64,000 nucleotides of DNA from Ceratodon purpureus (Eukaryota > Streptophyta > Bryopsida > Pseudoditrichales > Ditrichaceae), in assembly GCA_014871385.1 (NCBI GenBank), contig CM026431.1, positions 14,107,094 to 14,171,093 on the forward strand, read 5' to 3'. The position numbers and the translations under genes were made by a program. The stretch's first letter is position 1, and the number at the start of each line of letters is the position of its first letter. Positions 3,089-25,454 of this stretch are shown in pieces. Below the pieces are notes generated by a model, which ran no database searches, had not been told where the DNA came from, and saw only the letters and a program-made list of their open reading frames with translations.

Positions 3089-3128
<40 letters not shown>

Positions 3129-3411
3129 AAATAAAGATGAAGATGATGAAGAAGGACATGGAGGAGGTAGGCAAAGAAAGATAAGATTATACGCATTCGT
3201 CAAAGTTTTCGGTCCAAAATTGGATCCCACAATGGATGCGAATTTTTTATGCTCCTAGGCTCATGTGCTATTTCAATAGCTCTTCAAAATGGGTATTGCA
3301 AAGAATAGGAATCTAAGGGCTTTGAAAACCAGAGATTTAATTGTTGTGCTCAAAACTATTTTGTGATGGGTATCGCCTGCAGTTCCTGTGATATTTCAAA
3401 ACCTTCTCGTG

Positions 3412-3815: not shown

Positions 3816-3956
3816 AGTTTTTTTAGTATGACACGTGGGCCGTGGCAAAGGATTGAGTAGGTTAAAAAGGGTTTGGTGGCATCGTGCCAAAACTGTGAAG
3901 AACATGTAGGTGTAGACCTCTTCTCTTTCTTTAATTTTTTAACATTGTCTGCTTTT

Positions 3957-4385
3957 ATGGTAAGAGCTTTACATATTCATCACTTCATGCACCAATTCGT
4001 TTTTTATATACGGTATCACTACGGGGGAGGAGAGGTGGATTGCAAGCCTTATTTGTATTTGAAGGCCAAGTTCTATGACACATGGAATGTGCCAAGAATG
4101 GATCGTGTGGAGGTTGCATGCGATGCATGTCGTGCAAAGCATGGCTTAAGCCGTGGTATCATGGTAAATAAAGAAGAAGGAAGTGAAGAAAACGAAGGTC
4201 AAGAAGACGTCTTTGAAGAATTAATGGAAAAACAAAAAAAAAAAAAAAAAAAAACAAATAAAGATGAAGATGATGAAGAAGGACATGGAGGAGGTAGGCA
4301 AAGAAAGATAAGATTATACGCATTCGTCAAAGTTTTCGGTCCAAAATTGGATCCCACAATGGATGCGAATTTTTTATGCTCCTAG
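3957..4385 (+). CDS. Hypothetical ORF with acidic and poly-lysine C-terminal region (representative copy)
   Basis: Counted from the first ATG, this copy codes about 142 residues. A Cys/His-containing middle section (VACDACRAKHG) is followed by an acidic segment (EEGSEENEG) and then a poly-Lys stretch encoded by the poly-A tract. In this unit the tract keeps the frame open into a second acidic stretch (KDEDDEE) and a stop at 4383-4385. In other units a different poly-A length shifts the frame, giving alternative tails or an immediate stop. I do not recognise the family. It could be a fragment of a once longer gene, because the last unit of the array carries a different, poly-A-free 3' end. Confidence 0.25.
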   Translation: MVRALHIHHFMHQFVFYIRYHYGGGEVDCKPYLYLKAKFYDTWNVPRMDRVEVACDACRAKHGLSRGIMVNKEEGSEENEGQEDVFEELMEKQKKKKKKTNKDEDDEEGHGGGRQRKIRLYAFVKVFGPKLDPTMDANFLCS

Positions 4386-5359
4386 GCTCATGTGCTATTT
4401 CAATAGCTCTTCAAAATGGGTATTGCAAAGAATAGGAATCTAAGGGCTTTGAAAACCAGAGATTTAATTGTTGTGCTCAAAACTATTTTGTGATGGGTAT
4501 CGCCTGCAGTTCCTGTGATATTTCAAAACCTTCTCGTGATGGGTATTGCAAAACTGAAATTGGGCAAATGTAAGCCCGCGCCTAAAGAATGGGAATTCCA
4601 AGAAGTAGAAGACTTCCAACGATCCAAATTTCAAGGTCATGACTGCAACCTACATGAGAGAAGAAACAAAAAGAGTTTGAGAAGAAAAAGGAGGCTTGGA
4701 CCATGGGGGCTCAAATTTCTTGGAAGAAGCTGGAGGAGAGACGGCTAGGAAAGAACCAACTCCTTCTAAGTGTCATCAAGAATGCAAGGAAGTTGGAGGA
4801 GTTCCTCGAGGTGGATACTTTGCGCAAATGCACTCTAACTTACTTCTCCAAAGTTGAGAGCTCGCACAATTCTAATGACCTTGTTGACTTTGTGAGAAGA
4901 AATCCCCAAAATAACAAGAAAGCCACCAAAGCATTCCAATAGAGTTTTTTTAGTATGACACGTGGGCCGTGGCAAAGGATTGAGTAGGTTAAAAAGGGTT
5001 TGGTGGCATCGTGCCAAAACTGTGAAGAACCTGTAGGTGTAGACCTCTTCTCTTTCTTTAATTTTTTAACATTGTCTGCTTTTATGGTAAGAGCTTTACA
5101 TATTCATCACTTCATGCACCAATTCGTTTTTTATATACGGTATCACTACGGGGGAGGAGAGGTGGATTGCAAGCCTTATTTGTATTTGAAGGCCAAGTTC
5201 TATGACACATGGAATGTGCCAAGAATGGATCGTGTGGAGGTTGCATGCGATGCATGTCGTGCAAAGCATGGCTTAAGCCGTGGTATCATGGTAAATAAAG
5301 AAGAAGGAAGTGAAGAAAACGAAGGTGAAGAAGAAGTCTTTGAAGAATTAATGGAAAAA

Positions 5360-5406
<47 letters not shown>

Positions 5407-5538
5407 AAGATGAAGATGATGAAGAAGGACATGGAGGAGGTAGGCAAAGAAAGATAAGATTATACGCATTCGTCAAAGTTTTCGGTCCAAAATTGGATCC
5501 CACAATGGATGCGAATTTTTTATGCTCCTAGGCTCATC

Positions 5539-5547
5539 TGCTATTTC
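5539..5547. repeat. Left copy of target-site duplication
   Basis: TGCTATTTC lies immediately before the inserted element. The identical 9 bp lies immediately after it at 16498-16506, and intact satellite units carry this sequence once (CATGTGCTATTTCAATAG). The duplication can be read as 8, 9 or 10 bp: a shared C/G at the element ends makes the border ambiguous, and base 5538 is C where the right flank and intact units have G. Confidence 0.9.
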
Positions 5548-5596
5548 GAGGGAAGTTACCATGCGTGCTGCGAGCGGCGAGCGGAGAGCGGCGAGC
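5548..5596 (+). repeat. Left terminal inverted repeat of the MULE
   Basis: It starts GAGGGA and contains ATGCGTGCT and CGAGCGGCGAGCGG; it matches the reverse complement of 16496-16448 without gaps. Most mismatches are in positions 7-13, next to the outermost six bases. Further imperfect GCGAGC blocks continue to about 5610. Confidence 0.9.
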
Positions 5597-6310
5597 ACAG
5601 AATGGCGAGCACAGAATTTACCTTGATCAAAATTTTCAATACTAATAATACCCCTATAACCGCGGGAAAATAGGGAAATATGGCATTTTTGTAGGTACTT
5701 TTTTAAGAAAAATGTGTGTAATTCCGTGGATTTCTGGGTTAAAATCACTTCAGTTTATTACGTTTCTATGAAAAGGTTTAAATTAGGGCTGATGTCTTGA
5801 TGACGTCATGCATATATTTTGTTAGATTTGTCATGGGTTTAGGCAAGATACAATGATCAGGCGTTGAGTTTTAGATCAAAAAAATAATTCTTTCATAGAA
5901 TTATGTAATTGCACAAAGGAAAAAACAAATTTCACAGAACATGAAGGAGGCAAGGTCTGAAAACTTCCTAGAATATTTCAAAGCTCGTGTACAATAATTT
6001 AATTGCTGAAACCAAGATATACCTTGTCAGAGTCCTTGTCTTCATCGAAGATTACTCCGTCTTCCTACGCAGCGAAACTTCTTCATTCGAGTGATACAAG
6101 TAAGAGATTCTCATCACGAAACAACAGTTGGGTTCCACAGAAGGAGGCGATTCTTTGTTTCTTGAGCTTGTTTCTAGGTGGCGTATTAGGATAGTGACAC
6201 AAGCCCCGGCATTCTGTGCTGTATGCGAAGGTAGCGTACGAGTTTGGGTAAGTAAATGTGCAAGCTTGCGTGGAACGTTTTAAGACAACAACAATTTAGT
6301 GTCTTGCGCG
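5597..6310. other. MULE subterminal region, no gene recognised
   Basis: This stretch holds extra GGCGAGCACAGAAT copies just inside the terminal repeat and a block (CCCCTATAACCGCGGG, about 5651) with an inverted counterpart near 16290. The rest is AT-rich. Open frames here are short and show no coding character that I can recognise. Confidence 0.6.
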
Positions 6311-6748
6311 ATGCAGAAGGTGCGTAATGCGGCGTCAAGGAGGACAAGAGTCGTTGTGGGTTTGGCCACCAAGGCACCGGCGAGTTATGAGGAGCTGCGG
6401 CCCTGGCTGGTGGAGGTGGAGCGGGCCAGGGAACGAGGCATGGACCTGCCGCCGTTTAGGCACATCGGACGCCTCCATGTTGGTGATGGTGAATGGCGGT
6501 GGACAGTGCTCTGTACCAATGAGCTTCTCCGTATCATAGACCAGTCCCTTATCCCGTATCCCTTGGCCTCCACCGCCGTTGAGAATCCAGTTGTTCAGCT
6601 GTCCGAAGTGATCATATCGGATGGCGAAAATTGCTGGTTTAGGGTACCGACAAGAGTTGGACTGTATATCCCCCGAAGGATTATTACTCTAACAAATAGG
6701 CAACTAGTGGGGTGTTTGAATGCGGTAAAGGACTCCAGAGGATTGTAG
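6311..6748 (+). CDS. Hypothetical 145-aa protein inside the MULE
   Basis: The ORF from the ATG at 6311 is GC-richer than its surroundings and codes about 145 residues with a basic N terminus (ASRRTRVVV). I do not recognise a family. Its C-terminal part (SDGENCWFRVP, then LYIPRR) loosely resembles VDGTRKTVKIP, then VHVPER, in the decayed minus-strand exon at 7168-7840, which may mean a shared module. It could be an intact element gene, an exon of a longer one, or captured host sequence. An alternative upstream start at GTG 6299 is less likely. Confidence 0.4.
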   Translation: MQKVRNAASRRTRVVVGLATKAPASYEELRPWLVEVERARERGMDLPPFRHIGRLHVGDGEWRWTVLCTNELLRIIDQSLIPYPLASTAVENPVVQLSEVIISDGENCWFRVPTRVGLYIPRRIITLTNRQLVGCLNAVKDSRGL

Positions 6749-7167
6749 AGGAAAGAACCTGTCTTTGTATGTTTAGCAAGGACAGATATTCTTGCCTGAC
6801 CTTGTGTCTGGGTTTCTTCGAAGAATAACACCTGAGCTTGGAATTATAAAAAAAGATTACTCTTTGTTATGTAAGTTTTTTTAGTTATGGGTCTCTTCTG
6901 AGAACAAATGATGTTTGTATTATGAAAACAAAAGATTAACATTTAAAGAAATTTCTAATAGTTATGGGAGTCTCAGAATAATAGATGAGATTGGTATCAT
7001 GGAAGAGGTTATCGACCTTTAAAGATTAATTAAAGTATTCATATTTACGAACTATTACTAAGAGTGTTTTGAGTATAATTTTAAAATGAGAGGAATCAAA
7101 ATAATATGAAATGGTCAACGTTTTTCGTTTAATTAATATATTAGAAAAGCCTCTAGCTCATAAAATT
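6749..7167. other. AT-rich spacer inside the MULE
   Basis: No open frame of note, repeat or RNA gene is seen. The sequence separates the plus-strand ORF from the 3' end of the minus-strand pseudogene. Confidence 0.6.
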
Positions 7168-7840
7168 TCAAAGTTCCGTATGCTGTAGTTTTGGACGCTT
7201 TGCTGGTTGATCTTCATCGTCAGGTTCTCTTGTCCGCTTCCGTATTGGAACCCAGTCAAATCGTTTTTCCCAAATTGATCCGGTTTGTCCACATCCAACT
7301 CGATACAGCCAAATCCCTTCATTATCTGCTTTCCATGCGCAATCTATACACTCGATAGGCATTGAAACGTGGTTTAGCAGAGGAGGTGTCGATATTTTAA
7401 TATCTCTACGATAAGCCATAGCCCCTAGGTCTTTAAAATAGCATATCCAAGTCGAACTCAGTAAATGTTCATTGGTGCGTCGATTTAAGGATATTCGAAA
7501 AAAAACGTTCCGGTACATGTACTCGAAGGCCTCTAGGAATTTTCACAGTTTTCCTTGTGCCATCTACAACTCCATATGTAAGCATTAATTCATCATCCAG
7601 ATCATTAAAAATAGACACCCTATACTCTGCCAGATGTTCGAGGTGGTCCTCGTCCTCCTTCCAATGCCCAAATAGCTTAAACTGATGTCTACCGCTAAAA
7701 GGATGGAACTGAGAAACATACAAACCATCTCGTTCAATATTCCATCGACACAAATATGTATCAGGGCTGGGACCTTGTTTACAGATAGGGCAGTGCCAAA
7801 GGGTGGGGGCCAGTGGTACCCGCATGAGCCTCGGGTTCAT
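7168..7840 (-). pseudogene. Frameshifted terminal exon of an element gene, Cys-containing
   Basis: Read on the minus strand, the frame opens with a CPIC...YLC cysteine pattern (HCPICKQGPSPDTYLC), continues to VHVPERFF, and then must change frame to continue with RISLNRRTNEHLL and a basic tail (KRTREPDDEDQPAKRPK). The break lies in a run of eight A at 7498-7505, a typical site of a one-base slip. It probably forms the 3' part of the gene whose earlier exons lie at 7993-9375, but the joining splice is not clear because a palindromic repeat sits between them. No family is recognised. Confidence 0.5.
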
Positions 7841-7879
7841 GCGGGCGAAGGAGCAGCAGAGACATTCTGCCCTTCTCTC

Positions 7880-7965
7880 GCATAAGCCAACCGCTCATAC
7901 AGCACAGACATTCTGCCCCTTAGCTCTGCCGTCAACGGCAGTGGTTTTGAGGGGCATTAAATTGA
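7880..7965. repeat. Isolated palindromic repeat with TGCCGTCAACGGCA core
   Basis: The core (CTGCCGTCAACGGCAG, about 7925-7940) is flanked by further complementary arms (TTCTGCCCCTTAG on one side, TTTTGAGGGGCA on the other). It belongs to the family amplified at 9.5-12.6 kb. It sits within what should be the 3' part of the minus-strand gene, so it may be a later insertion there. Confidence 0.7.
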
Positions 7966-7992
7966 ATCTTGAAAAGAAGTGAAATAACTTAC

Positions 7993-9375
7993 TTGAGCCT
8001 ACCAAGTGGCCTTATGGAGCCATGGAGGAAATACAACGTCGGCGAAGTTAGGCTTCGGAAACTTATACGCATCCCAAATCGCTAGAGAAGAGTTCCACCT
8101 CTGGAGCCACTTGATCATCATCGGCGTGGGCATTGCTGAAGTTGCCAACATCCAGAGCTTCTCCTGTTGCATCTCAGGCTTATCAAATTTTTCGTAATGT
8201 AGTTTTACCTCCTCCAGAAACGCCGCTGTGTGCTTTGGATCTGCAACCGGCAAATACTTCCTTAGCTCCCCAATAAGCTTGTCCTCCACTGCTTTAACTG
8301 CCTAGGCAACCCACTCCTCGGTAGAGCGCTCGGTCCATTGCTCAAGGTCTGGGTGTTTGATCTGAAATCTCTCCTGAGCAGCATGTGCGGCTTCTCCTAG
8401 CTCTTGCTAAATTCACACAAAATTGTGAAAGTTATTCAACACGATAATAAAACGGTATTCAATCAAAGGCATTGCCGCGGCTAAGGAGCGCATACCTGAT
8501 AAAGCACTGTGCATAAGGCTTCAACCGAGAGTGTGTACCAAGTCCTCTTCTTCCCGGTCTGTTTCTTCTTAGTTGCTTCCAGAACCGACTGCGGTACTAG
8601 ACCCTCAAAGTAAGAGATTGGCTAAGGAGCTATGTTTTGGACGCGGTACAGTTTGTGGACAAGATTAGTTGACACATGCGATTTCTGATTCCTCCTGAAC
8701 ATGTAGAAAATCCGGTTAATTAGCACTCTCTAAAAAAGAAGACAAATCATATCAAAGATTAAAAATCAAAGATCCCTCACCAGGTAACTTCGTGTAACGC
8801 GGTCAAGGCGGAGGGTACGTCCCCTCTCGGATCGAGAATTACACTTTCCATCCTGTAATGCCAATTGATATCTCCCGCATGATACTCCTCAATAATCGGC
8901 TTCCAGGCCTGCAACCTACGGTAACCATCCCATACCATGAACATCTTGTTCGAAAATATCAGGAAGTCCTCATCTTTGCGCAAGCTCTGCTCGAAGTCGT
9001 CATTAACCTCCCTCTATTCCTTGGACCAGGAGGCTTCGATAGCCGGGGTGACTTCTGAAGTATGCCCATGGTTGTCTTCAAGGGCAACATAAAAATATCC
9101 ATTACCCTCCATGTAACCATCCCTGACAAAATGGGCAGCAAGGTTGTTCACATCATTCTTCAGGAAAGGGCAAACCACCGGCAGTGACACCATACGACAA
9201 AGAGGTATGAAGAGTCGATCCTTTGGCTTTGGCTGCCACTTCAATTTCTTGAATTGAGATGCGGTGATCACTGATTCCTGGTTGACAAGATCATACAACT
9301 TCTGCTTGAGTCCTCGGTCCGATAAGCGAACTGCAACACGAGGTCCATTGAGGTAATCAGAACATCGTTAAGCCC
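7993..9375 (-). pseudogene. Decayed multi-exon element gene with ParB/sulfiredoxin-like DG(x)xR motif
   Basis: Three minus-strand exons can be traced: about 9375-8781, 8694-8496 and 8406-7993. All have GT-AG borders and matching phases (W is split between exons one and two; exon three starts on a codon). The reading frame survives except for four stops, all TAG: 9014-9016, 8622-8624, 8302-8304 and 7999-8001. The first exon contains VWDGYRRLQAW, which resembles the DGxHR motif of ParB/sulfiredoxin-fold proteins with Tyr for the His-preceding residue and Arg for His. The third exon contains WLQRWNSSLAIWDAYKFP. The gene probably came with the transposon. Preserved splice phases argue that it was functional until recently. 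The function and the ParB link are inferences. Confidence 0.6.
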
Positions 9376-9477
9376 AATTCATGCACAACCCAATCTCATG
9401 CCCGGAACATGCGCAATCCGATTGCAAAACAAATATCATCAGAAAAGGTATAGGTAGGCCCATTGCAATATTGAAAG

Positions 9478-10990
9478 CACTGCAAATGCAGTACCGTTAA
9501 CGGCACTCCTTTTGCAGTGCATTATTCATGGAAGTAAGTCACCTTCATCACCGAGCTTCTTGACAAGGCTCGGTCAAGAAGGTTTTGCTCTACCATTTAA
9601 AAGCCACAGCAAAAGCAATGCCGTTAACGACACTGCTTTTGCAATGCCTTCTAGATTGCACGGGGCCAACCTATACTGCAGAGACTGTTAACCGGAGATT
9701 CCTTATCTCCCCCTTCTTTTTACCTACCAGTTATTTTCCCTTTGTTAACTCTCGCAGTTTTACCCCTGTAACTTCAAAACAGTCATCCAGTAACTTGGAT
9801 GAACTCTGTCCAGCCGACTGGATGACCTCTATCCAGCCGACTGGATGAATACTGCTTGGTTTAAGAGGCAGGATTAGGGTTTTGAGTAATCATTCCAGAC
9901 TAGAGCAGTTAGAGTTAGAGGAGTCTGAGAGCCATTAGAGGCCGCTGTACCATGATTATGGGCTGTTTGACTCATTAATTGCAGTTTTGACTGTTTTCTT
10001 CACTTGTATTGTATGTTTCCAGCTTGTTATGAGGGTTTGGAGTACTTGGATGTGTTGGGTTTTCTAGGGTTTTGATGGGTTTATAGAGTTAGGGTTTGGT
10101 TGATAAATCCTCCCTCTATCAGAGACTTATGACAAATTCGGCGGTATAGGTTGGATCTCTCCAATAAAGAAAGCACAGCAAAAGTAGTGCCGTTAACAGC
10201 ACTGCCTTTGCGGGGCCTATAAGATGGCACAGAGTCACCTTCGTCACCGAAGCCTGGTAATGAAGGTGACTCTATGCAATCCAAAAGGCACTCCAAAAGC
10301 AGTGCCGTTAACGGCACTGCTTTTGCAGTGCCTTCTAGGTGCCACACAGCCTACCTTCATCACCAAGCTTCTTGATAAGGCACTGATGAAGGTGGGCTGT
10401 GAGCCATCTAAAAGACACTGCAAAAGCAGTGCCGTTAACGGCACTGCTTTTGCACTGCCTTCCAGATGGCATATAGTCTTCTTCATCACCAATCCTTGTC
10501 AAGAAGGTTGGTGACGAAGATCGGCTCCATGCCATTCTGAAGGCACTGAAAAAGCAGTGCCGTTAACGGCACTGCTTTTTCAATGCCTTCGGAATGGCAT
10601 AGAGCCCATCTTCGTCACCGACCTAGTCAAGAAGCTCGGAGATGAAGATGGGCTTCTGCCATCCGAAAGGCACTCCAAAAGCAGTGCCGTTAACGGCACT
10701 GCATTTTCAGTGCCTTTGGAATGGCATCGAGCCCATCTTCGTCACCGACCTTGTCAAGAAGCTCGGAGATGAAGATGGGCTTTTGCCATCCAAAAGGCAC
10801 TCCAAAAGCACTGCCGTTAACGGCACTGCTTTTTCAGTGCCTTCGGAATGGTTAAAGCCCATCTTCATCACCGACCTTGTCAAGAAGCTCAGAGATGAAG
10901 ATGGGCTTTTGCCATCCGAAAGGCACTCGAAAAGCAGTGCCGTTAACGGCACTGCTTTTTTAGTGCCTTCGGAATGGTCAAAGCCCATCT
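9478..10990. repeat. Palindrome array, ~126-bp period, core GTGCCGTTAACGGCAC
   Basis: GTTAAC centres lie at 9496, 9623, 10192, 10307, 10434, 10562, 10689, 10816 and 10942, so the later copies are 115-128 bp apart. Around each centre an arm of about 22 bp is nearly perfectly self-complementary (GCACTGCAAAAGCAGTGCC and its complement). The spacer between two centres is itself an inverted repeat: AGCCCATCTTCGTC...CCGA pairs with TCGG.GATGAAGATGGGCT around a TTGTCAAGAAGC loop. Each unit is therefore two hairpins end to end. Overlapping open frames on both strands translate to recurring SAVNGTAF and AVPLTALL peptides. These follow from the palindromes and are not taken as genes. Confidence 0.92.
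9650..10140. other. Unique spacer within the palindrome array
   Basis: About 490 bp separate the two left palindromes from the main cluster. A short direct repeat (CCAGCCGACTGGATGA, about 9809-9848) is present. No gene is recognised. Confidence 0.5.
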
Positions 10991-11022
10991 TCGTCTCCGA
11001 TCGTCGTCAAAAAGGGAGCGAA

Positions 11023-12610
11023 TCGGGAGGAAAATCATAGATGAGGGGAGGGTCAAAAGAGAGTGCCGTCAACGGCACTCCTTTTATGACCTCTCAAGAT
11101 TTGTCCAAAGTGCTCGAACTTCATACCTTGGACGGCCTTGACAGTTGATTACCAACAGCAAAAAAACCATTCTGCAGGGCGCAAAAACTGAACAGGAAGC
11201 GGTTTTGGGAGGAAAATCATGTATGAGGGGAGGGTCAAAAGGGAGTGCCGTCAACGGCACTCCTTTTATGACCTCTGAAGATTTGTCCAAAGTGCTCGAA
11301 CTTCATACCTTGGACGGCCTTGACAATTGATTACCAACAGCAGAAAAACCATTCTGCAGGGCGCAAAAACTGAACAGGGAGCGGTTTTGGGAGGAAAATC
11401 ATGTATGAGGGGAGGGTCAAAAGGGAGTGCCGTCAACGGCACTCCTTTTATGACCTCTGAAGATTTGTCCAAAGTGCTCGAACTTCATACCTTGGACGGC
11501 CTTGACAGTTGATTACCAACAGCAAAAAAACCATTCTGCAGGGCGCAAAAACTGAACAGGAAGCGGTTTTGGGAGGAAAATCATGTATAAGGGGAGGGTC
11601 AAAAGGGAGTGCCGTCAACGGCACTCCTTTTATGACCTCTGAAGATTAGTCCAAAGTGCTCGAACTTCATACCTTGGACGGCCTTGACAATTGATTACCA
11701 ACAGCAAAAAAACCATTCTGTAGGGCGCAAAAACTAAACAGGGAGCGGTTTTGGGAGGAAAATCATGTATGAGGGGAGGGTCAAAAGGGAGTGCCGTCAA
11801 CGGCACTCCTTTTATGACCTCTCAAGATTTGTCCAAAGTGCTCGAACTTCATACCTTGGACGGCCTTGACAGTTGATTACCAACAGCAAAAAAACCATTC
11901 TGCAGGGCGCAAAAACTGAACAGGAAGCGGTTTTGGGAGGAAAATCATGTATGAGGGGAGGGTCAAAAGGGAGTGCCGTCAACGGCACTCCTTTTATGAC
12001 CTCTCAAGATTTGTCCAAAGTGCTCGAACTTCATACCTTGGACGGCCTTGACAATTGATTACCAACAGCAAAAAAACCATTCTGCAGGGCGCAAAAGCTG
12101 AACAGGGAGCTTTTTTGGGAGGAAAATCATGTATGAAGGGAGGGTCAAAAGGGAGTGCCGTCAACGGCACTCCTTTTATGACCTCTCAAGATTTGTCCAA
12201 TGTGCTCAAACTTCATACCTTGGACGGCCTTGACAGTTGATTACCAACAGCAAAAAAACCATTCTGCAGGGCGCAAAAACTGAACAGGAAGCGGTTTTGG
12301 GAGGAAAATCATGTATGAGGGGAGGGTCAAAAGGGAGTGCCGTCAACGGCACTCCTTTTATGACCTCTCAAGATTTGTCAATGTGCTCGAACTTCATACC
12401 TTGGACGGCCTTGACAGTTGATTACCAACAGCAAAAAAACCATTCTGCAGGGCGCAAAAACTGAACAGGGAGCGGTTTTGGGAGGAAAATCATGTATGAG
12501 GGGAGGGTCAAAAGAGAGTGCCGTCAACGGCACTCCTTTTATGAACTCTCAAGATGTTTACAAAGTGCTCGAACTTCTTACCTTACACGACCTTGACAAC
12601 TAAAAACCAA
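11023..12610. repeat. 182-bp tandem repeat array, about 8.7 units, with palindromic core
   Basis: Units repeat head to tail with a 182-bp period. The core GTGCCGTCAACGGCAC begins at 11063, 11245, 11427, 11609, 11791, 11973, 12155, 12337 and 12518; one unit is 181 bp because of a one-base deletion near 12379. Each unit continues with TTTTATGACCTCT, a conserved GTGCTCGAACTTCATACC block, TTGATTACCAACAGC and GGGAGGAAAATCATG. Units differ by few substitutions, so amplification is recent. The core is the palindrome of the preceding 126-bp array with a CA instead of TA centre. The 61-aa open frames in each unit are by-products of the repeat. Confidence 0.95.
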
Positions 12611-12699
12611 GAGCACTACTTTTAAGAGTAGATCTGAGGGGAAACAGTGGTGCTTAAGGACTTGGAACTGAATCAAATATAGGATAATTTGAGCTTCAA

Positions 12700-13760
12700 A
12701 AATACCCATTATGCATCTGAAAAGGATGTACCGTTAAAGGCAGTTTCCCAAAAGTGTCTCTCTGATGCACAAAATACCTAAAACTTTCTTAAAATAGCCT
12801 TTATCAATCAATTATGGACTCTCAATTATTTTTTGATGACCTTCAGAGGTAGTGCCGTTCACGGTAGTACTTTTTTACTGCAATTTGAAGGACTTGAAGT
12901 ATCTAATTGAAGGTTTTCTTGACAATTTCTTCAGTCTTGATTAAGGGCTAAAAAAGAGTGTCGTTAACGGCTATACTTTTTGAGCCTTCTTTTGGTCATT
13001 TAATCTGTTAAAATGAATCTGCTGTGGAGGTTGTGTTGTCAATGGCACGTCTCAAGAAGTATCCTCTGCTGTTTCAAGGGGGTCGAGTTCAAATACCAAT
13101 AATGCCCCTTGGGACCACTGTTGTCAACAGCAGTAATTTCAAGGGGTCAAATTCAACATCCAAAAATGGCCCTTTGGATGACGAATGTGGTTTCAAGGGG
13201 TCGAAATCAAAATCCAAAAATGCCCTTTTGGACCACTGCCATTGACGCCAGTGGTTTTAAGAGGTCAAATTCAACATCCAGATGTTCATGTTTTGACTAC
13301 TACAATTGCCAGCGAAGGTCTTATTTACAATTTAACAATGTAAGATGAAACCTCATTTCTCTCAAACACCTCTTATAGGACCAAATAGGAATTTTTTTAC
13401 TTGAATGAGTTTCCAAATAAAAAATTTAGAGGACGAATATATTAATGAAACAACAATTTGCATTGTGCTAATCCAAAATTTAAGGGCTGTCCAGAAATAT
13501 TATAAATACGAGATTCATATAAATTACACAAACAAATTTTTAAATAGATGAATTCAAATAAAGTAGAAGAATAGAAGGATTTCGATTCACATTAAAGGAG
13601 ATTCAAAATTCACATGTCTCCTTTAGTCCCCTACCGGCAACAAGATTGGTCTGAATGGGGTTGCCTGTTTTTTAGAATAGAATTGTCTTTTGTGCTCACT
13701 GTGAAGTGTCTTGAATAGAGCATTAGACCACTGTCGTTAATGGCGGTGCTATGAGCACCA
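12700..13760. repeat. Scattered degenerate palindromic cores
   Basis: Diverged copies occur near 12730 (GTACCGTTAAAGGCAG), 12852 (GTGCCGTTCACGGTAG), 12961 (GTCGTTAACGGCTA), 13104 (CACTGTTGTCAACAGCAGT), 13237 (CACTGCCATTGACGCCAGTG) and 13727 (CACTGTCGTTAATGGCGGTG). Three copies around 13070-13290 sit in a looser ~65-75 bp repetition with TTTCAAGGGGTC and CAAAAATGCC. These look like older members of the same repeat family. No gene is recognised in this stretch. Confidence 0.7.
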
Positions 13761-14059
13761 ACTAGAAGACATTCGATGTGCGGTACACGCTTGTGAAATT
13801 GGATGCGCCACCATTGTGGTTTGCTGCATCGCATCACCTGGATCATCGCTGGCCTTTGAAGCTTGCTCCATTGCTGCAACCGCTGGACCTGTGTAAAATT
13901 CCCTCCTAGCTTCTATAATCTCTTGTCATCAGTTATAGGATTGCTCTGGATCATTATGTTCTAGATGATTTTGTGCTGCTGAAATTTGCAATGCATACCA
14001 AGGTGATAAATCTCTATTGCTGATTACGGTGAAAATGGAGCGGAATGTCTTCAATGCAG

Positions 14060-14420
14060 CGTTCACCGCAACTTTTTTGGTAACGAGGTAACCAGATAAC
14101 CTTCTTAGACCACGCCATTTTTCATAATTCTATGGTTTATTATTAGTTTGAAGCACTGTAAGATATTCTCTATTGATCAGTTTCTTTTTATCTTTATTGT
14201 AGAAAGCATGATCCAAGTAATTGGAGCAGTCTTTTCTCCGACTAATAGTGATTATTTATCTGTTGTGCAGCTGAATAGCTTTGAAGTGGAGCTCCCAGTT
14301 CCAACTCTAGCCTCACAAGAAGGAGGTTCGAAGACTTGTCGTGTTGTGTTCATCCGAGCTCCTTCGATTTTAGATGTTGGTCCTTCCGTGGATGTGCTGG
14401 CGGAATATCTCTTGGCACCC
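14060..14420 (+). pseudogene. PDX2: Captured PDX2 gene fragment (pyridoxal 5'-phosphate synthase glutaminase subunit)
   Basis: PDX2 is the glutaminase subunit that supplies ammonia to PDX1 in the cytosolic vitamin-B6 pathway. Two exons separated by an intron are visible. A 28-nt exon at 14060-14087 codes VHRNFFGNE and is bounded by CAG and GTAACC. A second begins at 14271 after TTGTGCAG and codes SFEVELPVPTLASQEGG, then VFIRAPSILDVGP and VLAEY. This order matches the middle of plant PDX2 (VHRNFFGSQ, SFEADI, SQEGG, FIRAP, LDVGP, VLADY). The glutaminase nucleophile region upstream and the catalytic His-Glu region downstream are absent, and similarity stops at about 14420, so it cannot be a working enzyme. 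The retained intron shows DNA-level capture, as in Pack-MULEs. Confidence 0.88.
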
Positions 14421-14593
14421 AGGCAGTCAGTCGATGTCCTAGATCACGTGCTTCTTTTCTTCGCCAATGGAGGGGATTCATGTCTGCGGTATGATTTTCC
14501 TAAACTGTGCTGCTCCCTTCAATTTTTTTAGATAAATCTAAATGACAAAACTTCTATCATTGAATCTAACTCCTTCCATTGTCTAAACTCCAG

Positions 14594-15640
14594 AAATTTA
14601 CGGAAGAAGAACTCACAAAAATGCCCACCTGTAATCTCGTCGAAACAATTCATAACAAGTGGCTCCAAGCTTCAGGAAACCACGGCAGTGACCTCTACGT
14701 TGCCACGGTGGACGATTTTGTTCAGCGATTTCTACAGGTTGTTAACTACTACCAGTTCCTCAAAGATGACGTAGGCGGAACACCTCCATCGAAGAAGGAA
14801 CTGAAGCTTAGGATGGCGGAACGTAGGGCCCAGAGAGCTGTTACAAAAAAGAAGTGTATTGAGAGAATTGTCAGGGGCGCAAACTGCACTGCTGTACCTA
14901 CCTACACCGGGGTTTGGACTAACATACGTAGGAACACATAGTTCTTCTTCTGCCCCGATGACATTGAGAGGTGCGTGAAAGGCACAAGGCGCAAGTGGAT
15001 AGCTAGATACTCAGTGGACCAAGAAATGCCTTGGATTCTAGAGGTCTGGCCAATGAAACAAGATACAAACCCCAAACTCATAGAAATCCTCGCCCATGAA
15101 GCAGTAGGGTTTCAACTTCCGCAGAAGAAGCCGGTCTCCATAGGACGCCTCTTCTCGTCTGCCCCGCCTCCTGCAAATCTCAGTTCGGTGCCTATTCCTG
15201 CAGATGCAAACCGCTACCCAGGCAAGAGAGACGGCAAGATGGTGAAGCAAACTGCCACTCACCCTAACCCGGCGCAGCGACTCTCCATGGACTCCTCCAA
15301 GTCCCTCACAGCTCGCCTCCGTTCCGTCACTATGATACCTCACCCGGGCCATGGTTGCATCATCGGGTTGGATTCGGGCATTGCTCCTAACATCACACAG
15401 TACAAGATCACCATCAACTCCTACCCTGGCTGCACTTGCCCTGCATTCAAGAAGACGATGACTAAGTTCCGAGGTAGGATTCAGTTTACGTACTATAAGC
15501 ACATCTATCACATCTTCTTGAAGGTCTGCAGCCGTGATCCCGAGACGGACCTTTTCATCCATGCGCCTACCTTTAGTTTCAACAAAATCAAGCTAGTCCT
15601 AGAGAGTGGAATCTTGACTCACCCCTTGGCCAAAAAATAG
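14594..15640 (+). pseudogene. Transposase-type protein with degenerate SWIM-like zinc finger, one in-frame stop
   Basis: A single frame follows a TCCAG acceptor at 14593 and stays open for about 349 codons except for a TAG at 14939-14941. The first part has a helical region (LVETIHNKWLQASG, then DLYVATVDDFVQRFL) of the kind found after the catalytic core in transposase-like plant proteins. Near the end, YPGCTCPAF followed by YYKHIYHIF matches the SWIM pattern CxC...CxH, except that the third ligand Cys is Tyr (YKH). SWIM fingers are typical of MULE transposase C termini. I see no DDE catalytic region upstream, where the PDX2 fragment lies instead. The stop and the lost ligand indicate a dead copy. 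Confidence 0.6.
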
Positions 15641-16447
15641 GCGGCAGGATACTTTGGACGACAGGCATTCACATAGTGGACGGTGGTTAATGGGGATGCT
15701 TAGTCATTGGTGATTGAATTTTTCCTTGTACTGAGTCAGCAATACAATTTTCGTATTACCTATTTCAATATAAAGGTTTTGTCATTCACATTTACTTCAT
15801 CAAGTAAGAATAGTATTAACTTTGGACAAAGGCCCTTTGTACATTGTCTCTCCTAAAAGTTGGACTGTACTAGTGCCATCAATACAAATTAATAGCCATT
15901 TTATTCTTTAAAGGTAAAAACTAAAATGGAAAAAAAAAAATACATAGAAAATGAATAAAGAATAATTAAGAAGAAAATGAACAAACTAATCAGAAGATAT
16001 ATTGGCAATACAAATTAGAGGATAGCATGGAGGAATAGAATGGAAAGACAGAGTAGGAATTGAGAAGATGGTTAGAATGGAAGAAGATAGAAAGGGAAAC
16101 AAATTCAAATAAATAAAACAATAAGTAATATGATGAATGCCATGTACATGATTGGAAGAGATGTAATAATATGAAGAAAATGACATAAAATTTTGAAATT
16201 TAATTTAAGAACATTACAAAATATAAGATTAGTACAGAAACGAAGAGGGAAGGTAGTACATTTTTATTATAAAAACTGTAGTTCAGTCCACGGTTATAGG
16301 GTAAGAAAAAATTACTAATTCTATAAATATTCTCAGAATATTCTCAGAATGTTCGAAGATTCTAAATTTATATTCGAATTTTAGTCAAAAAGTTACTTTT
16401 TTAAAGATTTTGGACCCAATTTTCGGCTCGCCGCTCTCCAAATCTCC
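15641..16447. other. AT-rich right subterminal region of the MULE
   Basis: No gene is recognised. A purine-rich stretch (15900-16150) gives a spurious minus-strand frame. A TTCTCAGAATATTCTCAGAAT direct repeat lies near 16330, and CCACGGTTATAGGGTAAG near 16288 is the inverted partner of the left subterminal block. Confidence 0.6.
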
Positions 16448-16496
16448 GCTCGCCGCTCACCGCTCGCCGCTCGTAGCACGCATACAAGTCTCCCTC
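16448..16496 (-). repeat. Right terminal inverted repeat of the MULE
   Basis: Read on the minus strand it starts GAGGGA and contains ATGCGTGCT, then CGAGCGGCGAGCGG, matching 5548-5596. The sequence inward (16425-16447) holds two more GCTCGCCGCTC-type blocks. Confidence 0.9.
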
Positions 16497-16497
16497 G

Positions 16498-16506
16498 TGC
16501 TATTTC
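16498..16506. repeat. Right copy of target-site duplication
   Basis: TGCTATTTC is identical to 5539-5547; from here the satellite unit interrupted at 5547 continues (CAATAGCTCTTC). Confidence 0.9.
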
Positions 16507-17464
16507 AATAGCTCTTCAAAATGGGTATTGCAAAGAATAGGAATCTAAGGGCTTTGAAAACCAGAGATTTAATTGTTGTGCTCAAAACTATTTTGTGATG
16601 GGTATCGCCTGCAGTTCCTGTGATATTTCAAAACCTTCTCGTGATGGGTATTGCAAAACTGAAATTGGGCAAATGTAAGCCCGCGCCTAAAGAATGGGAA
16701 TTCCAAGAAGTAGAAGACTTCCAACGATCCAAATTTCAAGGTCATGACTGCAACCTACATGAGAGAAGAAACAAAAAGAGTTTGAGAAGAAAAAGGAGGC
16801 TTGGACCATGGGGGCTCAAATTTCTTGGAAGAAGCTGGAGGAGAGACGGCTAGGAAAGTACCAACTCCTTCTAAGTGTCATCAAGAATGCAAGGAAGTTG
16901 GAGGAGTTCCTCGAGGTGGATACTTTGCGCAAATGCACTCTAACTTACTTCTCCAAAGTTGAGAGCTCGCACAATTCTAATGACCTTGTTGACTTTGTGA
17001 GAAGAAATCCCCAAAATAACAAGAAAGCCACCAAAGCATTCCAATAGAGTTTTTTTAGTATGACACGTGGGCCGTGGCAAAGGATTGAGTAGGTTAAAAA
17101 GGGTTTGGTGGCATCGTGCCAAAACTGTGAAGAACATGTAGGTGTAGACCTCTTCTCTTTCTTTAATTTTTTAACATTGTCTGCTTTTATGGTAAGAGCT
17201 TTACATATTCATCACTTCATGCACCAATTCGTTTTTTATATACGGTATCACTACGGGGGAGGAGAGGTGGATTGCAAGCCTTATTTGTATTTGAAGGCCA
17301 AGTTCTATGACACATGGAATGTGCCAAGAATGGATCGTGTGGAGGTTGCATGCGATGCATGTCGTGCAAAGCATGGCTTAAGCCGTGGTATCATGGTAAA
17401 TAAAGAAGAAGGAAGTGAAGAAAACGAAGGTGAAGAAGAAGTCTTTGAAGAATTAATGGAAAAA

Positions 17465-17507
<43 letters not shown>

Positions 17508-19739
17508 AAATAAAGATGAAGATGATGAAGAAGGACATGGAGGAGGTAGGCAAAGAAAGATAAGATTATACGCATTCGTCAAAGTTTTCGGTCCAAAATT
17601 GGATCCCACAATGGATGCGAATTTTTTATGCTCCTAGGCTCATGTGCTATTTCAATAGCTCTTCAAAATGGGTATTGCAAAGAATAGGAATCTAAGGGCT
17701 TTGAAAACCAGAGATTTAATTGTTGTGCTCAAAACTATTTTGTGATGGGTATCGCCTGCAGTTCCTGTGATATTTCAAAACCTTCTCGTGATGGGTATTG
17801 CAAAACTGAAATTGGGCAAATGTAAGCCCGCGCCTAAAGAATGGGAATTCCATAAAGTAGAAGACTTCCAACGATCCAAATTTCAAGGTCATGACTGCAA
17901 CCTACATGAGAGAAGAAACAAAAAGAGTTTGAGAAGAAAAAGGAGGCTTGGACCATGGGGGCTCAAATTTCTTGGAAGAAGCTGGAGGAGAGACGGCTAG
18001 GAAAGTACCAACTCCTTCTAAGTGTCATCAAGAATGCAAGGAAGTTGGAGGAGTTCCTCGAGGTGGATACTTTGCGCAAATGCACTCTAACTTACTTCTC
18101 CAAAGTTGAGAGCTCGCACAATTCTAATGACCTTGTTGACTTTGTGAGAAGAAATCCCCAAAATAACAAGAAAGCCACCAAAGCATTCCAATAGAGTTTT
18201 TTTAGTATGACACGTGGGCCGTGGCAAAGGATTGAGTAGGTTAAAAAGGGTTTGGTGGCATCGTGCCAAAACTGTGAAGAACATGTAGGTGTAGACCTCT
18301 TCTCTTTCTTTAATTTTTTAACATTGTCTGCTTTTATGGTAAGAGCTTTACATATTCATCACTTCATGCACCAATTCGTTTTTTATATACGGTATCACTA
18401 CGGGGGAGGAGAGGTGGATTGCAAGCCTTATTTGTATTTGAAGGCCAAGTTCTATGACACATGGAATGTGCCAAGAATGGATCGTGTGGAGGTTGCATGC
18501 GATGCATGTCGTGCAAAGCATGGCTTAAGCCGTGGTATCATGGTAAATAAAGAAGAAGGAAGTGAAGAAAACGAAGGTGAAGAAGAAGTCTTTGAAGAAT
18601 TAATGGAAAAACAAAAAAAAAAAAAAAAAAAAAAACAAATAAAGATGAAGATGATGAAGAAGGACATGGAGGAGGAGGCAAAGAAAGATAAGATTATACG
18701 CATTCGTCAAAGTTTTCGGTCCAAAATTGGATCCCACAATGGATGCGAATTTTTTATGCTCCTAGGCTCATGTGCTATTTCAATAGCTCTTCAAAATGGG
18801 TATTGCAAAGAATAGGAATCTAAGGGCTTTGAAAACCAGAGATTTAATTGTTGTGCTCAAAACTATTTTGTGATGGGTATCGCCTGCAGTTCCTGTGATA
18901 TTTCAAAACCTTCTCGTGATGGGTATTGCAAAACTGAAATTGGGCAAATGTAAGCCCGCGCCTAAAGAATGGGAATTCCAAGAAGTAGAAGACTTCCAAC
19001 GATCCAAATTTCAAGGTCATGACTGCAACCTACATGAGAGAAGAAACAAAAAGAGTTTGAGAAGAAAAAGGAGGCTTGGACCATGGGGGCTCAAATTTCT
19101 TGGAAGAAGCTGGAGGAGAGACGGCTAGGAAAGAACCAACTCCTTCTAAGTGTCATCAAGAATGCAAGGAAGTTGGAGGAGTTCCTCGAGGTGGATACTT
19201 TGCGCAAATGCACTCTAACTTACTTCTCCAAAGTTGAGAGCTCGCACAATTCTAATGACCTTGTTGACTTTGTGAGAAGAAATCCCCAAAATAACAAGAA
19301 AGCCACCAAAGCATTCCAATAGAGTTTTTTTAGTATGACACGTGGGCCGTGGCAAAGGATTGAGTAGGTTAAAAAGGGTTTGGTGGCATCGTGCCAAAAC
19401 TGTGAAGAACCTGTAGGTGTAGACCTCTTCTCTTTCTTTAATTTTTTAACATTGTCTGCTTTTATGGTAAGAGCTTTACATATTCATCACTTCATGCACC
19501 AATTCGTTTTTTATATACGGTATCACTACGGGGGAGGAGAGGTGGATTGCAAGCCTTATTTGTATTTGAAGGCCAAGTTCTATGACACATGGAATGTGCC
19601 AAGAATGGATCGTGTGGAGGTTGCATGCGATGCATGTCGTGCAAAGCATGGCTTAAGCCGTGGTATCATGGTAAATAAAGAAGAAGGAAGTGAAGAAAAC
19701 GAAGGTGAAGAAGATGTCTTTGAAGAATTAATGGAAAAA

Positions 19740-19784
<45 letters not shown>

Positions 19785-22019
19785 AAATAAAGATGAAGAT
19801 GATGAAGAAGGACATGGAGGAGGTAGGCAAAGAAAGATAAGATTATACGCATTCGTCAAAGTTTTCGGTCCAAAATTGGATCCCACAATGGATGCGAATT
19901 TTTTATGCTCCTAGGCTCATGTGCTATTTCAATAGCTCTTCAAAATGGGTATTGCAAAGAATAGGAATCTAAGGGCTTTGAAAACCAGAGATTTAATTGT
20001 TGTGCTCAAAACTATTTTGTGATGGGTATCGCCTGCAGTTCCTGTGATATTTCAAAACCTTCTCGTGATGGGTATTGCAAAACTGAAATTGGGCAAATGT
20101 AAGCCCGCGCCTAAAGAATGGGAATTCCAAGAAGTAGAAGACTTCCAACGATCCAAATTTCAAGGTCATGACTGCAACCTACATGAGAGAAGAAACAAAA
20201 AGAGTTTGAGAAGAAAAAGGAGGCTTGGACCATGGGGGCTCAAATTTCTTGGAAGAAGCTGGAGGAGAGACGGCTAGGAAAGTACCAACTCCTTCTAAGT
20301 GTCATCAAGAATGCAAGGAAGTTGGAGGAGTTCCTCGAGGTGGATACTTTGCGCAAATGCACTCTAACTTACTTCTCCAAAGTTGAGAGCTCGCACAATT
20401 CTAATGACCTTGTTGACTTTGTGAGAAGAAATCCCCAAAATAACAAGAAAGCCACCAAAGCATTCCAATAGAGTTTTTTTAGTATGACACGTGGGCCGTG
20501 GCAAAGGATTGAGTAGGTTAAAAAGGGTTTGGTGGCATCGTGCCAAAACTGTGAAGAACATGTAGGTGTAGACCTCTTCTCTTTCTTTAATTTTTTAACA
20601 TTGTCTGCTTTTATGGTAAGAGCTTTACATATTCATCACTTCATGCACCAATTCGTTTTTTATATACGGTATCACTACGGGGGAGGAGAGGTGGATTGCA
20701 AGCCTTATTTGTATTTGAAGGCCAAGTTCTATGACACATGGAATGTGCCAAGAATGGATCGTGTGGAGGTTGCATGCGATGCATGTCGTGCAAAGCATGG
20801 CTTAAGCCGTGGTATCATGGTAAATAAAGAAGAAGGAAGTGAAGAAAACGAAGGTCAAGAAGATGTCTTTGAAGAATTAATGGAAAAACAAAAAAAAAAA
20901 AAAAAAAAAAAAAAACAAATAAAGATGAAGATGATGAAGAAGGACATGGAGGAGGAGGCAAAGAAAGATAAGATTATACGCATTCGTCAAAGTTTTCGGT
21001 CCAAAATTGGATCCCACAATGGATGCGAATTTTTTATGCTCCTAGGCTCATGTGCTATTTCAATAGCTCTTCAAAATGGGTATTGCAAAGAATAGGAATC
21101 TAAGGGCTTTGAAAACCAGAGATTTAATTGTTGTGCTCAAAACTATTTTGTGATGGGTATCGCCTGCAGTTCCTGTGATATTTCAAAACCTTCTCGTGAT
21201 GGGTATTGCAAAACTGAAATTGGGCAAATGTAAGCCCGCGCCTAAAGAATGGGAATTCCAAGAAGTAGAAGACTTCCAACGATCCAAATTTCAAGGTCAT
21301 GACTGCAACCTACATGAGAGAAGAAACAAAAAGAGTTTGAGAAGAAAAAGGAGGCTTGGACCATGGGGGCTCAAATTTCTTGGAAGAAGCTGGAGGAGAG
21401 ACGGCTAGGAAAGAACCAACTCCTTCTAAGTGTCATCAAGAATGCAAGGAAGTTGGAGGAGTTCCTCGAGGTGGATACTTTGCGCAAATGCACTCTAACT
21501 TACTTCTCCAAAGTTGAGAGCTCGCACAATTCTAATGACCTTGTTGACTTTGTGAGAAGAAATCCCCAAAATAACAAGAAAGCCACCAAAGCATTCCAAT
21601 AGAGTTTTTTTAGTATGACACGTGGGCCGTGGCAAAGGATTGAGTAGGTTAAAAAGGGTTTGGTGGCATCGTGCCAAAACTGTGAAGAACATGTAGGTGT
21701 AGACCTCTTCTCTTTCTTTAATTTTTTAACATTGTCTGCTTTTATGGTAAGAGCTTTACATATTCATCACTTCATGCACCAATTCGTTTTTTATATACGG
21801 TATCACTACGGGGGAGGAGAGGTGGATTGCAAGCCTTATTTGTATTTGAAGGCCAAGTTCTATGACACATGGAATGTGCCAAGAATGGATCGTGTGGAGG
21901 TTGCATGCGATGCATGTCGTGCAAAGCATGGCTTAAGCCGTGGTATCATGGTAAATAAAGAAGAAGGAAGTGAAGAAAACGAAGGTGAAGAAGATGTCTT
22001 TGAAGAATTAATGGAAAAA

Positions 22020-22061
<42 letters not shown>

Positions 22062-23165
22062 AAATAAAGATGAAGATGATGAAGAAGGACATGGAGGAGG
22101 TAGGCAAAGAAAGATAAGATTATACGCATTCGTCAAAGTTTTCGGTCCAAAATTGGATCCCACAATGGATGCGAATTTTTTATGCTCCTAGGCTCATGTG
22201 CTATTTCAATAGCTCTTCAAAATGGGTATTGCAAAGAATAGGAATCTAAGGGCTTTGAAAACCAGAGATTTAATTGTTGTGCTCAAAACTATTTTGTGAT
22301 GGGTATCGCCTGCAGTTCCTGTGATATTTCAAAACCTTCTCGTGATGGGTATTGCAAAACTGAAATTGGGCAAATGTAAGCCCGCGCCTAAAGAATGGGA
22401 ATTCCATAAAGTAGAAGACTTCCAACGATCCAAATTTCAAGGTCATGACTGCAACCTACATGAGAGAAGAAACAAAAAGAGTTTGAGAAGAAAAAGGAGG
22501 CTTGGACCATGGGGGCTCAAATTTCTTGGAAGAAGCTGGAGGAGAGACGGCTAGGAAAGAACCAACTCCTTCTAAGTGTCATCAAGAATGCAAGGAAGTT
22601 GGAGGAGTTCCTCGAGGTGGATACTTTGCGCAAATGCACTCTAACTTACTTCTCCAAAGTTGAGAGCTCGCACAATTCTAATGACCTTGTTGACTTTGTG
22701 AGAAGAAATCCCCAAAATAACAAGAAAGCCACCAAAGCATTCCAATAGAGTTTTTTTAGTATGACACGTGGGCCGTGGCAAAGGATTGAGTAGGTTAAAA
22801 AGGGTTTGGTGGCATCGTGCCAAAACTGTGAAGAACATGTAGGTGTAGACCTCTTCTCTTTCTTTAATTTTTTAACATTGTCTGCTTTTATGGTAAGAGC
22901 TTTACATATTCATCACTTCATGCACCAATTCGTTTTTTATATACGGTATCACTACGGGGGAGGAGAGGTGGATTGCAAGCCTTATTTGTATTTGAAGGCC
23001 AAGTTCTATGACACATGGAATGTGCCAAGAATGGATCGTGTGGAGGTTGCATGCGATGCATGTCGTGCAAAGCATGGCTTAAGCCGTGGTATCATGGTAA
23101 ATAAAGAAGAAGGAAGTGAAGAAAACGAAGGTGAAGAAGATGTCTTTGAAGAATTAATGGAAAAA

Positions 23166-23203
<38 letters not shown>

Positions 23204-24307
23204 AAATAAAGATGAAGATGATGAAGAAGGACATGGAGGAGGTAGGCAAAGAAAGATAAGATTATACGCATTCGTCAAAGTTTTCGGTCCAAAATTGGAT
23301 CCCACAATGGATGCGAATTTTTTATGCTCCTAGGCTCATGTGCTATTTCAATAGCTCTTCAAAATGGGTATTGCAAAGAATAGGAATCTAAGGGCTTTGA
23401 AAACCAGAGATTTAATTGTTGTGCTCAAAACTATTTTGTGATGGGTATCGCCTGCAGTTCCTGTGATATTTCAAAACCTTCTCGTGATGGGTATTGCAAA
23501 ACTGAAATTGGGCAAATGTAAGCCCGCGCCTAAAGAATGGGAATTCCAAGAAGTAGAAGACTTCCAACGATCCAAATTTCAAGGTCATGACTGCAACCTA
23601 CATGAGAGAAGAAACAAAAAGAGTTTGAGAAGAAAAAGGAGGCTTGGACCATGGGGGCTCAAATTTCTTGGAAGAAGCTGGAGGAGAGACGGCTAGGAAA
23701 GAACCAACTCCTTCTAAGTGTCATCAAGAATGCAAGGAAGTTGGAGGAGTTCCTCGAGGTGGATACTTTGCGCAAATGCACTCTAACTTACTTCTCCAAA
23801 GTTGAGAGCTCGCACAATTCTAATGACCTTGTTGACTTTGTGAGAAGAAATCCCCAAAATAACAAGAAAGCCACCAAAGCATTCCAATAGAGTTTTTTTA
23901 GTATGACACGTGGGCCGTGGCAAAGGATTGAGTAGGTTAAAAAGGGTTTGGTGGCATCGTGCCAAAACTGTGAAGAACATGTAGGTGTAGACCTCTTCTC
24001 TTTCTTTAATTTTTTAACATTGTCTGCTTTTATGGTAAGAGCTTTACATATTCATCACTTCATGCACCAATTCGTTTTTTATATACGGTATCACTACGGG
24101 GGAGGAGAGGTGGATTGCAAGCCTTATTTGTATTTGAAGGCCAAGTTCTATGACACATGGAATGTGCCAAGAATGGATCGTGTGGAGGTTGCATGCGATG
24201 CATGTCGTGCAAAGCATGGCTTAAGCCGTGGTATCATGGTAAATAAAGAAGAAGGAAGTGAAGAAAACGAAGGTGAAGAAGAAGTCTTTGAAGAATTAAT
24301 GGAAAAA

Positions 24308-24350
<43 letters not shown>

Positions 24351-25454
24351 AAATAAAGATGAAGATGATGAAGAAGGACATGGAGGAGGTAGGCAAAGAA
24401 AGATAAGATTATACGCATTCGTCAAAGTTTTCGGTCCAAAATTGGATCCCACAATGGATGCGAATTTTTTATGCTCCTAGGCTCATGTGCTATTTCAATA
24501 GCTCTTCAAAATGGGTATTGCAAAGAATAGGAATCTAAGGGCTTTGAAAACCAGAGATTTAATTGTTGTGCTCAAAACTATTTTGTGATGGGTATCGCCT
24601 GCAGTTCCTGTGATATTTCAAAACCTTCTCGTGATGGGTATTGCAAAACTGAAATTGGGCAAATGTAAGCCCGCGCCTAAAGAATGGGAATTCCAAGAAG
24701 TAGAAGACTTCCAACGATCCAAATTTCAAGGTCATGACTGCAACCTACATGAGAGAAGAAACAAAAAGAGTTTGAGAAGAAAAAGGAGGCTTGGACCATG
24801 GGGGCTCAAATTTCTTGGAAGAAGCTGGAGGAGAGACGGCTAGGAAAGAACCAACTCCTTCTAAGTGTCATCAAGAATGCAAGGAAGTTGGAGGAGTTCC
24901 TCGAGGTGGATACTTTGCGCAAATGCACTCTAACTTACTTCTCCAAAGTTGAGAGCTCGCACAATTCTAATGACCTTGTTGACTTTGTGAGAAGAAATCC
25001 CCAAAATAACAAGAAAGCCACCAAAGCATTCCAATAGAGTTTTTTTAGTATGACACGTGGGCCGTGGCAAAGGATTGAGTAGGTTAAAAAGGGTTTGGTG
25101 GCATCGTGCCAAAACTGTGAAGAACATGTAGGTGTAGACCTCTTCTCTTTCTTTAATTTTTTAACATTGTCTGCTTTTATGGTAAGAGCTTTACATATTC
25201 ATCACTTCATGCACCAATTCGTTTTTTATATACGGTATCACTACGGGGGAGGAGAGGTGGATTGCAAGCCTTATTTGTATTTGAAGGCCAAGTTCTATGA
25301 CACATGGAATGTGCCAAGAATGGATCGTGTGGAGGTTGCATGCGATGCATGTCGTGCAAAGCATGGCTTAAGCCGTGGTATCATGGTAAATAAAGAAGAA
25401 GGAAGTGAAGAAAACGAAGGTGAAGAAGAAGTCTTTGAAGAATTAATGGAAAAA

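Follow-up and report, generated by a model that had tools for sequence, protein, structure and literature searches.

Fragments of host PDX2 and DUF1365 genes within a moss transposon with Mutator-type ends

Introduction

In flowering plants, Pack-MULEs and other Pack-TYPE elements are well known to capture genes, according to the portions of the sources considered here (PMC13317346, PMC8903248, PMC9168764), and an excerpt of a further source shows gene capture by elements with terminal inverted repeats (TIRs) in animals (PMC8277862). For MULEs, the target site duplication is given as 7-12 bp, usually 9 bp, in the section drawn upon (PMC9168764). In a search of the literature, which covered mostly titles and the starts of abstracts and is not proof of absence, none of the titles listed was on such capture in a non-seed plant.

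PDX2 is the glutaminase of vitamin B6 synthesis. In a preliminary description made from the letters of the sequence, two exons of its gene and the intron between them were proposed to lie inside a MULE, at 14,060-14,420 of a 64,000-nucleotide stretch of the genome of the moss Ceratodon purpureus (assembly GCA_014871385.1, contig CM026431.1, positions 14,107,094 to 14,171,093 of the forward strand). This whole stretch is referred to here as the window, and the genome searched is the window's own assembly (362.5 Mb, 151 contigs).

Identity and source of the PDX2 fragment

Homology to PDX2 in the window extends over ~14,037-14,464 and covers part of exon 4, intron 4 and most of exon 5 (Table 1), so that the location first proposed holds and its extent proves slightly too narrow. 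In a profile search, the spliced peptide (91-96 aa) matched PdxT/PDX2 models only, namely TIGR03800 (E 7.8e-8; 32.5 bits, the cut-off for the whole protein being 105.55; model positions 95-151 of 184), PRK13526 PdxT (3e-5) and Pfam SNO (5.1e-5; 23.7 bits, below the 27-bit cut-off). All eight of its PDB matches belong to this family (six PdxT, one yaaE and one 'predicted amidotransferase'; best 4.6e-6). Since the exon 5 peptide without exon 4 scores 17.8 bits, splicing adds support to the PDX2 identity. The sole match of the PDX2 peptide among prokaryote contigs (L001) was rejected as due to chance, its frame containing stops.

The sequences PGGE[ST], G[TV]CAG, FHPE and LALQG, which we take to be motifs from the rest of PDX2, the catalytic-cysteine and FHPE regions among them, were absent from all six frames of the window, and therefore no complete PDX2 gene is present here. 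Of the two outcomes that the preliminary description named as counting against it, a contiguous complete PDX2 gene and a match to PDX2 no better than to other glutaminases, neither was observed. Judged by these presumed motifs, the window piece lacks the catalytic residues and cannot be a glutaminase. The two exons and the intron originally described are present, with one correction to their boundary: the exon 4 piece carries an 8-bp duplication (14079-14094), the GT used for the exon end 'GNE' at 14,087 owes its origin to this duplication, and an AT at 14096 occupies the host donor position, the donor itself being lost.

Table 1. Coordinates of the features of the element, in positions of the window.
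Feature	Position	Strand	Basis or remark
Whole mobile element, 10,949 bp (10.95 kb)	5548..16496	.	Tandem array resumes beyond the element; ends correspond in 17 copies
Left target site duplication, CTGCTATTTC	5538..5547	.	9/10 match to 16497-16506; the array elsewhere has GTGCTATTTC
Right target site duplication, GTGCTATTTC	16497..16506	.	Match to the left duplication
Left terminal inverted repeat (GAGGGAAGTTACCATGCG...)	5548..5610	+	Local alignment with the right end
Right terminal inverted repeat (...CATACAAGTCTCCCTC)	16433..16496	-	Local alignment with the left end
DUF1365-family host gene fragment	13774..14036	+	76.6% identity to L059; by eye, exon end and intron sequence
PDX2 exon 4, 3' part	14037..14095	+	Copies aligned with the host gene
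PDX2 intron 4, window reading	14088..14270	+	GT at 14088, AG at 14269-14270
PDX2 exon 5, 3' end truncated, frame open	14271..14464	+	Host comparison and PdxT models
Transposase gene, 3' part	14462..15637	+	Exon end, intron ~14489-14593 by GT/AG, last exon; in-frame TAG at 14939

The check suggested in the preliminary description, a comparison with the exon and intron of a parental gene in the same genome, yielded a PDX2 gene on the minus strand of contig C9 (13.756-13.758 Mb; L007), and a second host PDX2 gene lies on contig C12 (L008). Positions in the C9 gene are given below with the prefix P and refer to the reverse complement of L007, in which the ATG lies at P 4,644 and the stop codon near P 6,590 (by eye). 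Window positions 14,042-14,440 are 87% identical to the C9 gene at the DNA level, intron 4 included, and the C12 gene matches at 78% over 14,264-14,467 only. Between the window and the C9 gene, 12 of 156 compared sites differ in exon 5 (7.7%) and 18 of 174 in intron 4 (10.3%; 156 of 174 alike). As the identity to the C9 gene spans exon and intron sequence, the capture took place at the DNA level, and the introns kept in the copies exclude a retrocopy. In addition, 12 bp of exon 5 are missing from the C9 gene (near 5900 of the reverse complement) and present at the same place in the C12 gene and in the aligned element copies, which makes the capture older than that deletion in the host.

Structure of the element and its copies

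The element that encloses the fragment (Table 1) interrupts a tandem array of ~1.15-kb units. Both of its flanks carry TGCTATTTC (9/9, or 9/10 when the outer base is counted), and all 15 uninterrupted array junctions read GTGCTATTTCAAT at the insertion position. The TIR arms, of ~63 bp, are imperfect and give a local alignment score of 38, compared with a maximum of 16 in 200 shuffles; one of 2000 random window pairs reached this score (maximum 72). Typical MULEs have long TIRs, and the arms here are shorter.

The array itself occupies positions 1-5541 and 16501-30095 of the window, with units of 1,127-1,149 bp that show 0-5 substitutions from the majority among the 15 units compared. Many of these units contain an open reading frame (ORF) of ~150-190 aa as well as a long run of A, and the one ORF that was checked has no Pfam match. 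Inside the element, 9448-12598 holds palindromic repeats of 127 bp, densely packed around GCCGTTAACGGC cores, followed by a 182-bp tandem repeat in 8.7 copies; peptide strings like those of this segment turn up in translations of a separate repeat family (L058). At 8002-9367, ORF pieces of one protein without a Pfam match lie on the minus strand, opposite to the transposase piece. Elsewhere in the window, a 389-bp tandem repeat of 6.4 copies (37672-40164) within leucine-rich-repeat ORFs (36912-41836, by eye) suggests repeat expansion, and an ordinary plant gene of the NPH3 family is found at 60989-62044 (Pfam, 144.2 bits).

A DNA search with 13,700-14,620 as query gave 51 matches, and, as 40 of 593 candidates were scored, the copy counts are lower bounds. 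At least 20 copies of the family occur in the genome: the window-type structure is found at no fewer than 11 places, with 96-100% identity, and nine other copies (L029-L037) differ from it. The remaining matches are two older relatives on contig C6 (B and C), the two host genes and flanking parts only. Relative A (C6:40,243,631-40,251,107) carries an earlier PDX2 part. An enrichment of the family on C6 was considered and rejected, seven of 20 copies on this contig being about what is expected from its 30.5% of the assembly. In a tree of the region from exon 4 to exon 5, the 21 element rows all fall on one side and the host genes on the other, a weakly supported split (70/68); L037, which is trimmed further and without exon 4, was dropped from this tree, and relative A does not have the region.

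Target duplications of 9-10 bp, each at a different site, flank all 17 copies in which both ends were read, ten of them identical over 10 bp, five with a 9/10 match and two identical over 9 bp; this count covers 17 of the 20 family copies, L021, L035 and L036 lying outside it. Among the older relatives, C has AGGAGAAGAG on either side, A has a target duplication with an 8/10 match (by eye), and the left end of B was looked for and not found. The duplications at different sites, together with the TIRs on the enclosing unit, argue for capture by a mobile element, and the proposal that host DNA with its intron had been taken up in this way is thereby upheld.

The transposase gene

Downstream of the PDX2 fragment, the element contains the 3' part of a transposase gene that matches 3439-3812 and 4239-5336 of a related locus (L064, at G000:C2:3182966) with 76-77% identity. 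PDX2 homology stops at 14,464 and transposase homology begins at 14,462, an overlap of ~3 bp, and the 3' border of PDX2 falls within a transposase exon. All 20 copies aligned have this same junction, across which the reading frames of PDX2 and transposase disagree in the window. In L064 the corresponding site is close to where a 737-aa ORF ends, and a 488-aa ORF follows. The aligned 3' part of the transposase is interrupted by a stop or frameshift in every one of the 20 copies, and 18 of these copies share the TAG at 14,939 (L035 and L036 are without it), which indicates that the family spread when it was already broken. A related transposase family, 79-81% identical, accounts for 137 of the 150 scored matches (from 2,399 candidates), mostly with open frames of ~500 aa; one of these 137 loci, L064, was read. 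With L064 and 136 similar places, this family looks recently active. It would be the natural helper for mobilisation.

MULE transposases are marked by a C-terminal SWIM zinc motif, CxCx(n)CxH, and by a D/D/E layout. By eye, a SWIM-like motif can be seen in L064 (CTC...YCKH), with Y instead of the third C in the window copy. In Pfam searches at E up to 10, no family matched the first L064 ORF (708 aa used), the second (488 aa used) or two pieces of the window, and the remaining pieces of the window, searched at E up to 1, gave only a sub-threshold match to DUF1392 (0.085; 6284-6745); no MULE or SWIM domain was seen in any of these. No PDB match was obtained with a transposase piece or L064, and a search of viral contigs with the transposase piece returned 13 stretches that fit a pattern, none of them a relative. 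Because Pfam misses the transposase even in the open-frame relative L064, the label 'MULE' rests on the ends, the target duplications, which in all 17 copies are within the MULE range, and motifs seen by eye. The original assignment of the element to this class is thus backed by TIRs and target duplications and not by a Pfam MULE transposase domain. Host fragments are found between TIRs, the parental genes lie elsewhere (PDX2 on C9, DUF1365 on C12) and introns were captured, and these features fit an element that works like a Pack-MULE with Mutator-type ends; it is called Mutator-type here from its ends and target duplications, the Pfam result being negative.

Stages of the capture

The sequence directly upstream of the PDX2 fragment is not PDX2 and derives from a second host gene. 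This DUF1365 gene (L059) is located at C12:9698503, and two of its frames match PF07103 with 29.1 and 40.1 bits (cut-off 25). DUF1365-like sequence (77-81%) is also present, without a PDX2 match, at the repeat-family loci L058, L060, L061, L062 and L063, and DUF1365 therefore probably preceded PDX2. L058 and L060-L063 belong to another repeat family, whose members are 94-98% identical to one another.

The longer copies preserve more of PDX2. All eight (L029-L036) contain the gene from P 4,749 in intron 1 to P 5,915 in exon 5, a span in which intron 1 is present in part and introns 2-4 are kept; L030 has an internal gap in it. At their 5' junction, the DUF1365 piece is followed by P 5476-5511 (35-36 bp, out of order) and then by P 4748/4749 onward, and an out-of-order junction is common to the eight long copies and to relatives A, B and C. 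Relative A shares the 35-36-bp piece of the long copies. In B and C, the out-of-order piece is longer, reaching from P 5,387 to 5,509-5,511 (123-125 bp), and PDX2 resumes at P 4,768 (B) or 4,749 (C) and runs with insertions to 6,865, past the stop codon. The window form, represented by 11 copies, fits a long form from which a deletion has removed exons 2-3 along with some of exon 4, and L037 is trimmed beyond the window form. A single capture with template switching is the reading favoured by the shared scrambled 5' junction. The 3' side of PDX2 has a different history in the main family, in A and in B/C, which requires more than one rearrangement.

Origin of the element and alternative explanations

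The host gene, the introns in the copies, the common junctions, the ends, the target duplications and the common stop are observed. The reading preferred here, with a probability of about 0.85, is that host DNA was taken up by a DNA transposon bearing Mutator-type ends and later trimmed, and that the element was amplified in trans, the window copy being one product. During gap repair or replication, a template switch of the element into an ancestral PDX2 gene, which today lies on C9, would have copied the stretch from intron 1 to past the stop codon as well as the out-of-order short piece of intron 3-exon 4, and the DUF1365 fragment was probably beside the capture site already. PDX2 would later have lost sequence by deletion, and the main family would have acquired a direct join between the 3' part of PDX2 and the transposase gene, the transposase part preceding the join not lying at that place. 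Transposase from elsewhere would then have carried these elements, their own transposase being broken, to at least 20 places, among them the tandem array in which the window copy lies. Template switching, this order of events and the role of the related family as the source of transposase in trans are inferred.

The DUF1365-PDX2 block could also have been assembled in a different element, for example a Helitron or a further repeat family, and have arrived as a nested insertion, as the DUF1365-like sequence in L058 and L060-L063 might suggest. This is improbable: the repeats listed for 12,600-16,500 include no inverted pair closely bracketing the block, its 3' PDX2 border with the short overlap lies inside a transposase exon, and B and C have different 3' sides. 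Far less credible still is an ordinary PDX2 pseudogene or segmental duplication beside transposon remnants; truncation and decay of the PDX2 fragment would be expected of it, but the same PDX2-transposase junction in 20/20 copies and target duplications at corresponding ends in 17/17 speak against it.

A role of the PDX2 part for host or element, in which small RNAs or antisense transcripts from ~20 copies would tune host PDX2, seems doubtful, if slightly less so than the nested insertion. The window fragment has 32 21-mers in common with the host gene, three long copies in which they were counted have 100-136, with longest exact runs of 37-46 bases, and captured sequences are presented as siRNA reservoirs in maize in the part of the source at hand (PMC13317346). 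Against this, exon 5 is almost as far from the host sequence as intron 4 is, and the window compared with the host gives dN 0.065 and dS 0.126, on few sites. Moreover, among the 20 copies exon 5 contains a stop in L026 and L035, L023 has an 8-bp gap, L034 has a 1-bp deletion in exon 4, and the exon 4 T run is shortened in all three long copies inspected. The ratio of dN to dS between the C9 and C12 host genes is 0.40, and pooled pN/pS within 17 copies is 0.56. These values and the near-equal divergence of exon 5 and intron, all on few sites, suggest that the PDX2 piece of the window most likely evolves nearly neutrally, as a passenger of the transposon.

Comparison with known systems

Beyond capture and spread as such, we lean towards a fuller account, held less firmly, of a bryophyte Mutator-type family in which two host genes were captured serially at one internal site by template switching, PDX2 was fused to the element's own transposase gene and the product was amplified in trans. 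If this is true, gene shuffling of the Pack-MULE kind would be general to land-plant elements of this type and not confined to seed plants. A single moss genome holds both host genes, the capture stages (long, trimmed and with the out-of-order junction) and the related transposase family, and the order and mechanism of capture thereby become testable outside flowering plants.

Like the Pack-MULEs of rice, maize and other flowering plants, the element has TIRs, 9-10-bp target duplications, multiple copies and no intact transposase among those seen, and it carries host gene pieces with introns, here from two genes. Pack-MULEs are usually 2-3 kb long according to the passages available (PMC9168764), whereas the window element measures 10.9 kb and keeps transposase remnants; furthermore, they are known from flowering plants, while this element comes from a moss and its transposase is unrecognised by Pfam. 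The animal Pack-TIRs likewise include TIR elements that capture exon and intron sequence, some of them multicopy, and template switching with microhomology is proposed for them in the extract considered (PMC8277862); in comparison, the present element is from a plant, has Mutator-type ends and shows a fusion to its own transposase gene. The Abermu MULEs of barley, as portrayed in the section cited, are similarly large (8.2 kb), with 5'-GGG...CCC-3' ends, mostly 9-bp target duplications and high copy number (PMC9168764). Abermu seems, from the same section, to be autonomous and to have an extra ORF of unknown origin, whereas the window element has a broken transposase and captured genes of established identity. 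This kind of element is thus already known, and the interest of the moss family lies in its host lineage and in the capture stages that it has preserved.
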